A DNA stretch of 64,000 bases from Planococcus sp. SK3692 (GTDB lineage: Bacteria > Bacillota > Bacilli > Bacillales_A > Planococcaceae), in contig NZ_JARCHV010000002.1 in NCBI RefSeq assembly GCF_028890485.2, positions 1,116,001 through 1,180,000 of the forward strand. Direction: 5' to 3'. Shown piece after piece: positions 17,915-22,014 of this stretch; position 1 is the first letter of the stretch; each line of letters opens with the position of its first letter. Both the position numbers and the translations under genes were made by a program. Below the pieces are notes generated by a model. The model was not told the origin of the DNA, searched no databases, and saw nothing but the letters and a program-made list of their open reading frames with translations.

Positions 17915-17960
17915 CATTTGCCGAAAAACAGGTAAACTAGAGGCAGAGGTGAGTCAAAAC

Positions 17961-18713
17961 ATGGCATACATAATCGAAACAAAAAATCAGGTAATGACAT
18001 TTACGATCGACCGGCCCCATATTCGCAACGCTATCAATAATGACGTGATGGAAGGGTTTGAAGAACTCACTTCACGCGCAAGAACAGAAGACATCCGCTA
18101 TGTCATCATCACGGCGACAGGCGAGCAGGCATTTTGTTCAGGCGGCGACTTGTCGGTCTTCCATGAATTGAAAACAGAACAGCAGGCTTGGCCTATGCTC
18201 AGCCGGATGGGCGAAGCCTTGTATCGCATCAAGACGATTCCTGTCCCGGTCATTGCGCTCGTCAATGGCACGGCAGTCGGCGGGGGCTGTGAGATTGCGA
18301 CGGCGTGTGATTACCGGCTGGTGAGGAGACACGCCAAATGCGGCTTTATTCAAGGGACGCTGGCCATCACGAGCGGCTGGGGCGGCGGCACCTATCTTTT
18401 TGAATCCCTGAAGCATGACGCAGCACTGAAGATGCTCAGTGATGCGCGCGCCTACACAGCGGCTGAATTGCATGAGAACGGGTGGGCCAGCGCCATCATC
18501 GGAGAAGACGGGGATATTGACCGATTCTTGGCATCGATGGACCGTGTGCTGCCATCCGTCCACCGTGCGTATAAAGCCATGGCGATCCGCAAGTGGCAGG
18601 AAACGAATTTGAAACTGCGGGTCGACCAGGAAATACGTGAATGCGCCAGATTGTGGGCAGAGGAAGCGCACCATAAGGCTGTGGATGCGTTTTTGAATAA
18701 AAGCAAAAAATAA
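17961..18713 (+). CDS. Crotonase-fold (enoyl-CoA hydratase/isomerase family) protein, possibly an ECHDC1-like acyl-CoA decarboxylase
   Basis: This 250-residue protein has a clear crotonase fold: oxyanion-hole loops CSGGDL (about 59-64) and VNGTAVGGGCEIATACDYRL, with Glu111 in GGGCE. The second catalytic glutamate of classical hydratases (in PEILLGTIPG of the mammalian enzyme) is replaced: the aligned stretch here is FIQGTLAITSGWGGG. The Ile-x-x-x-Trp-Gly-Gly pattern recalls ECHDC1, the ethylmalonyl-CoA decarboxylase. It precedes an acyl-CoA carboxylase operon but has its own terminator. The ATG at 17961 follows AGAGGTGAG; a GTG at 17949 is the alternative. Family is certain; activity is inference. 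Confidence 0.85.
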   Translation: MAYIIETKNQVMTFTIDRPHIRNAINNDVMEGFEELTSRARTEDIRYVIITATGEQAFCSGGDLSVFHELKTEQQAWPMLSRMGEALYRIKTIPVPVIALVNGTAVGGGCEIATACDYRLVRRHAKCGFIQGTLAITSGWGGGTYLFESLKHDAALKMLSDARAYTAAELHENGWASAIIGEDGDIDRFLASMDRVLPSVHRAYKAMAIRKWQETNLKLRVDQEIRECARLWAEEAHHKAVDAFLNKSKK

Positions 18714-18735
18714 GGCTCCTATGGGGTCTTTTTTT
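18714..18735 (+). terminator. Terminator after the crotonase-family gene
   Basis: GGCTCC pairs with GGGGTC (two G-U pairs) around a 3-base loop, starting right after the stop codon and followed by seven T. The stem is short. Confidence 0.6.
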
Positions 18736-18809
18736 ATGGAAAAACAATGCCATCTTCTTATGAATGAAGTGAACAGACGGAACATTATGGAAAATATTTT
18801 TTTCAATAG

Positions 18810-18839
18810 TTGAAATCGCTTACAAAATTCGTATATGCT
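18810..18839 (+). promoter_or_regulatory. Promoter of the acyl-CoA carboxylase operon
   Basis: TTGAAA at 18810-18815 and TATGCT at 18834-18839 are spaced by 18 bases, 35 bases before the accC-like start. The -35 box and spacer overlap a cre-type operator. Confidence 0.6.
18811..18824 (+). promoter_or_regulatory. Catabolite-responsive element (cre) overlapping the carboxylase promoter
   Basis: TGAAATCGCTTACA matches every position of the classical B. subtilis cre consensus TGWAANCGNTNWCA. It lies across the -35 region and spacer of the promoter, where CcpA bound with HPr-Ser-P would block RNA polymerase. The inference is that the carboxylase operon is repressed when a preferred sugar is present. 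Confidence 0.7.
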
Positions 18840-18873
18840 AGAGAAGGGAGAAAACTTAGGGGGTATTTCATAC

Positions 18874-20223
18874 ATGAAAAAAATCCTGATTGCCAACCGG
18901 GGCGAAATTGCACGGCGCATTATCCGGACATGCGACCGCCTCGGCATCGAAACCATCGCAATCCACTCCGAGGCGGATGGGGAACTGCCTTATGTGAGTG
19001 AAGCGACAGAAGCGGCAGCGATCGGCCCGAACCCGGTCGCGCAATCTTATTTACAAGCAGATAAAATCATCGAAGAAGCTGTAAAGCGCAACGCTGAAGC
19101 GATCCATCCAGGTTATGGCCTGTTATCGGAAAACGCGGATTTTGCACGCAAAGTGACAGAAGCGGGACTGATCTTTATCGGCCCAAAACCTGAAGTCATC
19201 GAAACGATGGGCGATAAGCTCGGCTCCAGGCGCACGATGAAACAAGCTGGTGTGCCTGTCGTTCCAGGGACAGCTGAAGGGGTATCAGACATTGAGGCAG
19301 CTGTCTTGGAAGCGAAAGCGATCGGCTATCCGTTGATGTTGAAGGCGAGTGCGGGAGGCGGCGGCATTGGCATGGTATTGTGTGAAAATGAGCAAGCGCT
19401 CACTCAGCAGTTTGAATCGGTCAAAAACCGTGCCAAAGCCTACTTCGGAAACGACATTGTCTATCTGGAAAAATTCATCGCCAATGCACGCCACATCGAA
19501 GTACAGATTTTTGGCGACGAGTCAGGCAATATTGTCCATTTGTATGAGCGCAACTGCTCTGTACAGCGCCGCAATCAAAAAGTCATCGAAGAATCGCCGT
19601 CTCCGGACTTACCGGAATCCGCCAAAACCAAGCTGTGTGAAGCAGCCGTCCAAGCGGCTCGCGCGGTCGGCTACACAAATGCAGGAACGGTGGAGTTTAT
19701 CGTTGATGAAAACAACGATTTTTACTTCCTGGAAATGAACACCCGTCTGCAAGTGGAACATCCAATTACCGAAGAGGTGACGGGAATCGATTTGGTTGAA
19801 TGGCAAGTAAATGTTGCAAGGGGCGAAGCATTGCCTGCACAAGACACAATCCAGACGACTGGACATTCAATCGAATACCGTATTTATGCGGAAGACCCGA
19901 AAACATTTTTCCCGTCTCCTGGGACATTGTCCGTCTTGAAATGGGGTGCTGGTGCCCGTATTGAAACGGGATACGAAGAAGGCAATAAAGTCACGCCATT
20001 CTACGATCCAATGATTGCCAAGGTAGTATTGACAGGGGCATCGCGGGAAGAAGTCTTAAATAAATCCAGAAAGTTCTTTGACGAAACGGTGATTGAAGGG
20101 GTAAAAACCAATCTGCCGTTATTTGATCAATTTATCGAATCCAAACTATTTATAGAAGGAAATTACGCGACGGCCGTATTGGCTCAGTGGCTTACACAAC
20201 AAAAGGAGGAAAAAACAGTATGA
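18874..20223 (+). CDS. Acyl-CoA carboxylase biotin carboxylase subunit (YngH-like)
   Basis: It carboxylates biotin on the carrier protein using ATP and bicarbonate. The 449-residue protein has the three-part biotin carboxylase layout: N-terminal KKILIANRGEIARRI, the ATP-grasp glycine loop KASAGGGGIGM, EMNTRLQVEHPITEEVTG and the C-terminal GHSIEYRIYAEDP. Length equals AccC. The ATG at 18874 follows TAGGGGG. Operon order biotin carboxylase, separate carrier, carboxyltransferase matches the yngHA-yngHB-yngE type, so it is more likely a catabolic or odd-acyl carboxylase than the fatty-acid AccC, whose usual partner is accB. Substrate cannot be read from this subunit. Confidence 0.9.
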   Translation: MKKILIANRGEIARRIIRTCDRLGIETIAIHSEADGELPYVSEATEAAAIGPNPVAQSYLQADKIIEEAVKRNAEAIHPGYGLLSENADFARKVTEAGLIFIGPKPEVIETMGDKLGSRRTMKQAGVPVVPGTAEGVSDIEAAVLEAKAIGYPLMLKASAGGGGIGMVLCENEQALTQQFESVKNRAKAYFGNDIVYLEKFIANARHIEVQIFGDESGNIVHLYERNCSVQRRNQKVIEESPSPDLPESAKTKLCEAAVQAARAVGYTNAGTVEFIVDENNDFYFLEMNTRLQVEHPITEEVTGIDLVEWQVNVARGEALPAQDTIQTTGHSIEYRIYAEDPKTFFPSPGTLSVLKWGAGARIETGYEEGNKVTPFYDPMIAKVVLTGASREEVLNKSRKFFDETVIEGVKTNLPLFDQFIESKLFIEGNYATAVLAQWLTQQKEEKTV

Positions 20224-20435
20224 AACAACTAACAGCATCTATGGCCGGAACGGTCTTAAACATTGCAGTCAACGAAGGGGATTCTGTATCGGCGGGGCAA
20301 ACCGTTCTGACTCTTGAATCGATGAAAATGGAAATTCCGGTAGAAGCGGAATTCAGCGGAAAAGTCGAAAAAGTCGATGTGGAAGTTGGCAGCTTTGTCA
20401 ACGAAGGGGACACATTGGTGACGCTCGGCGAATAA
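20220..20435 (+). CDS. Stand-alone biotin/lipoyl attachment protein (YngHB-like)
   Basis: At 71 residues this is just one biotinyl domain, lacking the N-terminal extension of AccB. The biotin site is in LESMKMEIP, with the lysine at residue 36. In B. subtilis the equivalent small protein (BLAP, yngHB) can accept biotin or lipoyl groups. The ATG overlaps the upstream stop as ATGA, and AAAAGGAGGA lies 8-10 bases upstream, so translation is coupled to the carboxylase. It must shuttle carboxybiotin between its two operon partners. Confidence 0.92.
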   Translation: MKQLTASMAGTVLNIAVNEGDSVSAGQTVLTLESMKMEIPVEAEFSGKVEKVDVEVGSFVNEGDTLVTLGE

Positions 20436-20463: not shown

Positions 20464-22014
20464 ATGACGAAAACGACTGAAACAACGGGATATAATACAA
20501 GGCTTGAAGAAAAGCTTTCGAAGATTTTCGCAGGCGGGCAAGAGAAATACCATGAGAAGTTGAAAGAAAGTAATAAACTATTTGTCAGAGACCGCTTGAA
20601 TTTGTTGTTTGATGACGGCGATTATATTGAAGATGGCCGTTTCGCGAATGTGGAAGCGGGCGATCTTCCAGCAGATGGCGTCGTCACGGCGATCGGCAAA
20701 GTGAACGGCGAAACCGTTTGCGTCATGGCGAACGACTCCACCGTTAAAGCAGGGTCATGGGGCTCACGGACAGTGGAGAAAATCATCCGTATCCAAGAAA
20801 CGGCTGAAAAGATGCAAGTGCCGATGCTTTATTTGGTGGACTCGGCAGGGGCACGCATCACCGATCAATTGGAGATGTTCCCAAATCGCCGCGGGGCAGG
20901 CCGCATTTTCCACAACCAAGTGCGCATGTCCGGTATGGTCCCGCAAGTATGCTTATTGTTTGGCCCATCTGCGGCAGGCGGGGCATACATCCCGGCGTTT
21001 TGTGACATCGTCATCATGGTTGAAGGAAATGCCTCAATGTATTTAGGATCGCCGCGCATGGCGGAAAAAGTCATCGGCGAGAAAGTGTCGCTCGAGGAAA
21101 TGGGCGGCGCCCGCATGCACTGTACTGTCAGTGGCGTTGGCGACGTATTGGTGTCCACCGAAGAAGAAGCGATTTCGGAAGCGCGCCGCTATATGGCATT
21201 TTTCCCGGCGAATTTTGCCGGCAAGCCCGAAGTGCTCGAAGCAAAAGCGAAGAAAGCGGGACGCAGCCTGGAAGAGATCATTCCAGAAAACCAGAACGCG
21301 CCATTTGATATGTATGAATTGATCGACCAATTGATCGATGAAGATAGCTTTTTCGATATCAAGAAGTTGTTTGCGCCGGAATTGATCACTGGCTTCGCTC
21401 GAATCGACGGACAAGCGGTCGGCATCATTGCCAACCAGCCGAAAGTAAAAGGCGGCGTATTGTTCGGGGATTCTGCTGATAAAGGCGCCAAGTTCATCAA
21501 CCTATGCGATGCCTTCTCGATTCCGCTATTGTTCCTCGCCGATGTGCCTGGCTTTATGATCGGTACAAAAGTGGAACGTGCAGGCATCATCCGTCACGGC
21601 GCTAAGTTCATCTCTGCGATGAGTGCGGCTACTGTGCCGAAGATTTCAGTCGTCGTACGGAAAGCATACGGCGCCGGGCTTTATGCGATGGCAGGACCTG
21701 CTTTTGAACCCGATGTGTGCATTGCGCTTCCGACAGCGCAAATTGCCGTCATGGGACCTGAGGCGGCAGTCAATGCGGTTTATTCCAATAAGATCGAAGC
21801 GATCGAAGACCCGAAAGAACGCCTTGCCTATGTCCAGCAAAAGCATCAGGAATATAAAGAAGAAATCAATATTTATCGTTTGGCATCAGAGCTTATCGTC
21901 GATGAAATCGTCGCGCCATATGCGCTTCGTGATGAATTGTCCAAACGCTTAACGATCTATGCCACGAAAGATTTGCCATTGCCGTATCGAAAACATCCGA
22001 TCATTCCTGTATAA
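20464..22014 (+). CDS. Acyl-CoA carboxylase carboxyltransferase subunit (YngE-like)
   Basis: This 516-residue carboxyltransferase of the PccB/MccB type joins beta and alpha halves in one chain. It transfers CO2 from carboxybiotin to an acyl-CoA. Visible motifs are DSAGARITDQLEMFPNRRG and GPSAAGGAYIPAFCD in the N-terminal half, and DVPGFMIGTKVERAG and RKAYGAGLYAMAG in the C-terminal half. The DSAGARITDQ form resembles B. subtilis YngE. Candidate substrates are propionyl-, methylcrotonyl- or acetyl-CoA; I cannot tell which. The ATG at 20464 is placed by AAAGGGGTGG; an in-frame GTG at 20455 is possible. Confidence 0.9.
   Translation: MTKTTETTGYNTRLEEKLSKIFAGGQEKYHEKLKESNKLFVRDRLNLLFDDGDYIEDGRFANVEAGDLPADGVVTAIGKVNGETVCVMANDSTVKAGSWGSRTVEKIIRIQETAEKMQVPMLYLVDSAGARITDQLEMFPNRRGAGRIFHNQVRMSGMVPQVCLLFGPSAAGGAYIPAFCDIVIMVEGNASMYLGSPRMAEKVIGEKVSLEEMGGARMHCTVSGVGDVLVSTEEEAISEARRYMAFFPANFAGKPEVLEAKAKKAGRSLEEIIPENQNAPFDMYELIDQLIDEDSFFDIKKLFAPELITGFARIDGQAVGIIANQPKVKGGVLFGDSADKGAKFINLCDAFSIPLLFLADVPGFMIGTKVERAGIIRHGAKFISAMSAATVPKISVVVRKAYGAGLYAMAGPAFEPDVCIALPTAQIAVMGPEAAVNAVYSNKIEAIEDPKERLAYVQQKHQEYKEEINIYRLASELIVDEIVAPYALRDELSKRLTIYATKDLPLPYRKHPIIPV

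Follow-up and report, generated by a model that had tools for sequence, protein, structure and literature searches.

A widespread crotonase-fold clade with glutamine at the second catalytic glutamate site: a candidate alkylmalonyl-CoA decarboxylase in Planococcus and its relatives

Among the closest described systems, ECHDC1 degrades ethyl- and methylmalonyl-CoA, as reported in PMC6717113, which also prints the mouse ORF whose translation served as our ECHDC1 sequence. In E. coli, scpB belongs to the scpA-argK-scpB-scpC operon and is annotated as methylmalonyl-CoA decarboxylase (ScpB, or YgfG). The third point of reference is the 3-hydroxypropionyl-CoA dehydratase 5zai, for which PMC6048173 names Glu113 and Glu133 as the catalytic acid and base and Tyr142 as a pocket residue of this C3-C4 dehydratase. 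To these we compare a crotonase-fold protein of 250 aa encoded at 17961..18713 (+) in the window, by which we mean the whole 64,000-nucleotide stretch of Planococcus sp. SK3692 that was analysed; the clade to which the protein belongs carries here a name of our own, the FxQ clade, and is a candidate group of alkylmalonyl-CoA decarboxylases.

The ORF translates into 250 aa without an internal stop (an alternative GTG start lies 12 bases upstream, at 17949), and its product matches Pfam ECH_1 at 2.8e-34. An AlphaFold2 model built from 40 sequences (mean pLDDT 88.7) matched crotonases in the PDB (3pea_F, VIA Z 30.1, rmsd 2.4 over 245 residues), and with G61, G62 and G107-109 invariant the protein combines the fold with the oxyanion-hole glycines that together mark the crotonase superfamily. 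The model bears out the fold named in the original prediction; confidence is lowest at residues 133-135, next to Gln131. The fold search was uninformative on decarboxylation, since the matches listed were many crotonases with similar Z values and the word 'decarboxylase' was absent among them; the closest solved structures, by sequence and by fold alike, carry hydratase or dehydratase names.

In the phmmer alignment to 5zai, which is ungapped here, Glu111 falls on Glu113 and Gln131 on Glu133; because these are the glutamates named as catalytic in PMC6048173, we read Gln131 as replacing the second hydratase Glu, such that the window protein carries, as aligned, a naturally occurring Glu-to-Gln exchange at the second of the two catalytic positions. 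The same alignment puts W140 on Tyr142, and Ile136 to Trp140 with the following Gly-Gly make up the Ile-x-x-x-Trp-Gly-Gly pattern, so that two features claimed beforehand, the missing second Glu with the first retained and the pattern itself, were both found. Where classical enoyl-CoA hydratases possess two catalytic Glu, the window protein keeps E111 and has Q131 for the other. A delta3,delta2-enoyl-CoA isomerase, which uses a single catalytic Glu at the position equivalent to residue 131, was also set aside, as that position is Gln.

Evaluating these residues across relatives revealed that they belong to the family as a whole. The loci yielded 178 crotonase rows, of which 30 identical ones were dropped to leave 148. 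Compared with the window protein, 128 of these reached 120 bits or more, and every one of the 128 distinct relatives possesses E111, Q131, W140, E224, W232 and H237. The other 20 rows, comprising classical crotonases of the source genome, E. coli enzymes, operon partners and ECHDC1, held Q131 in 0/20 and W140 and W232 in 1/20 each, with mouse ECHDC1 being that one row both times. E111, Q131, E224, W232 and H237 were likewise invariant in a diverse set of 27 sequences that included four proteobacterial relatives, and among the 32 clade rows of a 64-row tree set Q131, W232 and H237 occurred in 32/32 and W140 in 31/32. Gln131 is, across these alignments, a family trait and the motif is not chance, and ordinary hydration appears unlikely with Gln at the second Glu site in 128/128 relatives. 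The invariance of the oxyanion glycines, Glu111, Gln131, Trp232 and His237 in the 27 diverse sequences indicates an active site under selection, which argues against a non-catalytic protein or an epimerase or thioesterase that works with Glu111 alone; we regard such a function as highly improbable, even with one catalytic Glu lost and no epimerase-named gene in the four annotated mutase-operon stretches described below.

The gene is also common, being present in 198/200 genomes of an order-level sample (E up to 1e-30), all listed under one family code, and in 108/250 genomes of a class-level sample (E up to 1e-28); judged by the window crotonase, the closest named relatives of the source genome are Planococcus records. 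Among the best 25 NCBIfam matches listed for each of eight members, the window protein and seven relatives, every model stayed below its cut-off, the annotation in four plasmid records of the clade reads 'enoyl-CoA hydratase/isomerase family protein', and a search of titles and abstract openings in open-licence PMC found no literature on the clade or on a mutase-crotonase operon. The FxQ clade is, judged by its sequences, a widespread and so far nameless branch of the enoyl-CoA hydratase fold.

The original prediction proposed, as a suggestive link, a bacterial repair decarboxylase with an ECHDC1-like motif that serves the neighbouring carboxylase by removing its damaged product. The ECHDC1 idea is supported in part. 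Both proteins have the crotonase fold with E111, F129, W140, E224 and W232 and neither has Glu at 131, but ECHDC1 has His at 131 and Asn at 237 where the FxQ clade has Gln and His, and identity to the window crotonase is 29% over 166 residues. The Trp of the GWGG motif was rejected as an ECHDC1 marker, given that PDB 7eum, a named enoyl-CoA hydratase/isomerase, and the relative pl_L191 carry it together with Glu at 131. Orthology did not follow from reciprocal matching: the source genome holds nine PF00378 matches, eight of which were compared with ECHDC1 (L009 was without a match at E 1e-6), and with ECHDC1 the window crotonase reached 82.0 bits, below the 98.2, 95.5 and 93.6 bits of three other crotonases, and is thus not its reciprocal best match. 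In the trees, in every one of which ECHDC1 is a single long-branch row, it fell within the FxQ clade at 99/97 in a 67-row tree, joined FxQ at 64/98 in a 64-row tree with more outgroups, a grouping that is not firm and has a bootstrap not fully settled, and dropped outside the clade in a quick tree from which the motif columns (window residues 104-148) had been removed. After this matching and three trees we leave ECHDC1 orthology as unproven. A true, vertically related bacterial ECHDC1 serving a partner carboxylase is in our view quite unlikely; the common F129, W140 and W232 and the first tree favour it, and they are set against the failed reciprocity, the departure of ECHDC1 once the motif columns are gone, the residues at 131 and 237, and the many loci, counted below, in which no carboxylase gene was found.

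The clade itself kept its proteobacterial members with and without the motif columns. The 32-row FxQ clade, mutase-operon proteins included, was recovered at 91/82 in the 64-row tree, whose bootstrap had not fully settled, and it was retained with an SH-aLRT of 98 in the quick tree minus residues 104-148, so that the tie of the mutase-operon proteins to the clade is independent of the motif. E. coli ScpB (L120) resembles the clade in its crotonase fold, its Glu at 111 and its lack of Glu at 131, but it has Pro at 131 and Tyr at 232 and shares 24% identity over 121 residues with the window crotonase. It stood on a separate branch from FxQ in three trees, and since forcing the two together was rejected, if modestly (p-AU 0.0398, rounded to 0.04), membership of ScpB in the clade was rejected as well. 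Set among known crotonases, the window protein has hydratases and dehydratases as its nearest PDB entries and lies in a clade apart from ScpB.

The strongest evidence for decarboxylation is the operon context of those relatives whose clade membership is motif-independent. Among 72,556 plasmid records searched at the protein level, 171 contained a match; 30 of these were listed, and 7 of the 30 (H1-H5, H7, H8) reached at least 120 bits. H1, H2, H5, H7 and H8 were fetched, with H3 and H4 left out, and a mutase adjoins the crotonase in 5/5 of the fetched records. By annotation, the crotonase of four of them is followed by a methylmalonyl-CoA-mutase-family large subunit, a B12-binding/cobalamin-dependent protein and a CoA-transferase (L170:8956-13829, L171:7977-12763, L172:7977-12992 and L174:7983-12970), after which comes a GTP-binding protein in L170 and L171 and a hypothetical protein in L172 and L174; in L173, the fifth record and one without annotation, the mutase was found by tblastn. 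Pfam assigned MM_CoA_mutase, B12-binding, CoA_transf_3 and MeaB in the Diaphorobacter record (L170, the one scanned), whose mutase also lies above the NCBIfam cut-off for the methylmalonyl-CoA mutase N-terminal domain. At two sites where E. coli ScpA carries Tyr and Arg, 4/4 aligned operon mutases have the same residues, which would bind a carboxylate. A term search of PMC2847961 found no passage on mutase substrate determinants.

This gene cast, which recurs on proteobacterial plasmids with a split B12-dependent mutase, resembles that of the E. coli scp operon, as scpB and the proteobacterial FxQ relatives both keep company with genes for a mutase, a MeaB-type GTPase and a CoA-transferase, but the E. 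coli CoA-transferase is of a different Pfam family from that of L170. The cast accompanies the proteobacterial relatives and not the crotonase of the 100 Bacilli loci searched for a mutase. The lower-scoring plasmid relatives L175-L177 and L184-L191 fall outside the FxQ clade, and the stretches fetched around them contain no mutase; in one Sphingobium sp. record (L189:2414-4759), an annotated hypothetical protein of about 780 codons matches the crotonase in its C-terminal part, an apparent fusion.

The operons also bear on which acid would be decarboxylated. A malonyl-type decarboxylase with another main substrate, either malonyl-CoA or a longer dicarboxylyl-CoA supplied by the neighbouring mutase or carboxylase, could be reconciled with the CoA-transferase of the mutase operons (family III by Pfam in L170) and with TRAP or tripartite tricarboxylate transporter genes directly after the operon in 3/4 annotated records, which hint at an imported acid. 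Trp140 and Trp232 suggest instead a small pocket, as far as the alignment and PMC6048173 allow, and in Bacilli the crotonase occurs together with genes of the methylmalonyl-CoA mutase family, such that we consider another main substrate very doubtful.

This co-occurrence was evaluated in the 250 class genomes; a mutase-family gene was called at E up to 1e-50 in 135 of them, and a carboxyltransferase at E up to 1e-150 in 142. A mutase-family gene is present in 108/108 genomes with the FxQ gene, and the FxQ gene in 0/115 mutase-free genomes, with 27/135 mutase-bearing genomes lacking it; these counts are raw and uncorrected for shared ancestry (phylogeny). Because a control crotonase of the source genome, found in 156/250 class genomes, occurs in 26 that are mutase-free, the restriction to mutase-bearing genomes is not general to crotonases. 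A carboxyltransferase occurs anywhere in the genome in 106/108 FxQ-bearing class genomes. The source genome has its mutase genes away from the window (which is C5:1116001-1180000), on contig C4 at 187145-189934, and another mutase-family gene with a long ORF lies at C5:537433. A tblastn search with five mutases placed a mutase near the crotonase in 0/100 Bacilli loci, the same queries having matched in two positive-control loci.

In the window, the crotonase follows rpmF (ribosomal protein L32; 17681..17857, +), a conserved upstream neighbour, and the adjoining carboxylase operon that had been predicted is confirmed, with an accC-type biotin carboxylase of 449 aa (18874..20223, +), a biotinyl carrier protein of 71 aa recognised from its sequence with an ESMKME motif and from the tblastn loci (20220..20435, +), and an acyl-CoA carboxyltransferase of 516 aa (20464..22014, +) whose best NCBIfam match, mmdA, is under the cut-off. 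The carboxyltransferase matches listed from other class genomes are 48-91% identical to it, and a second carboxyltransferase of the same genome (C4:181673) is 38% identical. A terminator-like hairpin 3' of the crotonase (18712..18730, +) and a promoter-like site (18810-18839) do lie between the two units, as had been stated, but the scanned stretch holds such elements in numbers not above shuffled sequence (2 terminators vs a shuffled mean of 1.3, sd 1.3; 2 promoters vs 1.7, sd 1.4). The roughly 160 bases between crotonase and accC (18714-18873) leave no room for an RsfA-type gene.

The genome scan identified 231 encoding stretches, the best 80 of which form our named loci, and window genes were placed in these by tblastn with at least half of the query covered in one match. 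By this measure and by sequence, rpmF is upstream in 79/79 loci that have upstream sequence (L021, the 80th, starts just before the crotonase), whereas accC, biotinyl carrier and carboxyltransferase follow downstream as a full set in 29/80 and as a partial set in 9/80, L020 ends too early to tell, and none of the three was found in 41/80. The carboxylase link is conserved, not obligatory, and of the pairing proposed originally the frequent adjacency survives and strict coupling does not. In L043, L047, L048, L066, L069, L079, L083 and L084, tblastn placed a biotinyl carrier and carboxyltransferase but no adjoining biotin carboxylase, and L042, the ninth such locus of the 80, has a carboxyltransferase only; these loci may borrow a biotin carboxylase from elsewhere, or their products may act as a decarboxylase. 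In L043, L052 and L060 an RsfA-like ORF, noted by eye, sits directly 3' of the crotonase.

Across 20 broader Bacilli loci the arrangement shifts, with the crotonase followed by an RsfA-type gene and then by accC and biotinyl carrier in 10/20. In L160, the one such locus annotated, accC and biotinyl carrier are followed by an HMG-CoA lyase gene and a second, classical crotonase, and then by the carboxyltransferase; second crotonases with Glu at 131 occur in 8/20 of these loci, at a distance of some kilobases from the first. Carboxylase genes were not found in L147 and L148, which read rpmF, crotonase, panE and bshC, nor in L161 and L164, which read crotonase, RsfA-type gene and panE. In the 18/20 loci other than L147 and L148, tblastn with a motif scan did not find rpmF. 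An RsfA-type motif lies close to the crotonase in 13/20, and the ORFs inspected beside the crotonase in L151, L157, L162, L163, L165 and L166 gave no functional hint.

Such neighbours, together with the names of the nearest solved relatives, would fit a hydratase, dehydratase or lyase whose acyl-CoA substrate is an uncommon one, such as an intermediate of leucine or branched-chain breakdown, and in which another residue, for instance His237 or Glu111 alone, provides acid-base catalysis. The enzymes in question, 5zai and enoyl-CoA hydratases such as PaaF, are the best PDB sequence matches and share the fold, the first Glu and the oxyanion glycines with the clade, but they have the second Glu, with Tyr or Ala at 140 and Phe or Ala at 232. 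The second crotonases of the Bacilli carboxylase operons, which form a separate and well-supported branch, differ from FxQ in having both Glu. We take them to be of the YngF type. With a two-Glu crotonase already in eight of those operon regions, Gln at the catalytic site in every distinct relative, and proteobacterial relatives that adjoin a B12 mutase and not beta-oxidation genes, we consider a hydratase, dehydratase or lyase unlikely.

Our best explanation, held at medium confidence, is that the window protein and the FxQ clade are short-chain alkylmalonyl-CoA decarboxylases. Independent support for it comes from the relatives in B12-mutase operons and from the way the gene co-occurs with one of the methylmalonyl-CoA mutase family; the missing second Glu and the ECHDC1-like residues, including a polar non-Glu residue at 131 in both (His in ECHDC1, Gln in FxQ), suggest the same. 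Counted against it are the known bacterial enzyme ScpB with its Pro at 131 and its place elsewhere in the tree, the exit of ECHDC1 when motif columns are removed, the hydratase and dehydratase names of the nearest structures, the mutase-bearing genomes that lack the gene, and a model that is weakest beside Gln131. As none of the 100 Bacilli loci searched has a mutase near the gene, a decarboxylase function there would be transferred from relatives that share about 31-36% identity.

From the residues, clade, operon contexts and co-occurrence that we observe, we infer the following chemistry, substrate and physiological role. The protein would be a soluble CoA-thioester enzyme that decarboxylates short branched malonyl-CoA esters, methylmalonyl-CoA first and possibly ethylmalonyl-CoA. 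The thioester carbonyl would sit in an oxyanion hole formed by backbone NH groups of the G61-G62 region and G108, and loss of CO2 would leave an enolate held by the same oxyanion hole. Gln131, at the site of the hydratase Glu, would hold or orient the carboxylate without deprotonating water, the alpha carbon would be re-protonated by Glu111 or bound water, and Trp140 and Trp232 would shape the pocket to fit an acyl group of C3-C4. The proteobacterial members would serve as a pathway enzyme behind a B12-dependent mutase, comparable to ScpB in E. coli. In Bacilli, where its neighbours are rpmF or an RsfA-type gene and, in many loci, an acyl-CoA carboxylase, metabolite repair that clears stray methylmalonyl-CoA or carboxylase by-products is more likely than a pathway step, because no mutase was found near the gene in the loci searched there.

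More tentatively, the FxQ clade could be a lineage of malonyl-type CoA decarboxylases on the crotonase fold, the third beside ECHDC1 and ScpB, with Gln in place of a catalytic Glu. It may have been deployed twice, in Proteobacteria for the catabolic reaction that follows a B12-dependent mutase, and in Bacilli as a repair enzyme of wide distribution that keeps stray methylmalonyl-CoA from fatty acid synthesis. If the decarboxylase reading is true, a gene of 198/200 order-level genomes would move from hydratase to decarboxylase, an as-yet unexplained B12-mutase operon in Proteobacteria would be accounted for, and bacteria would have a counterpart to mammalian ECHDC1 for removing abnormal carboxylation products.
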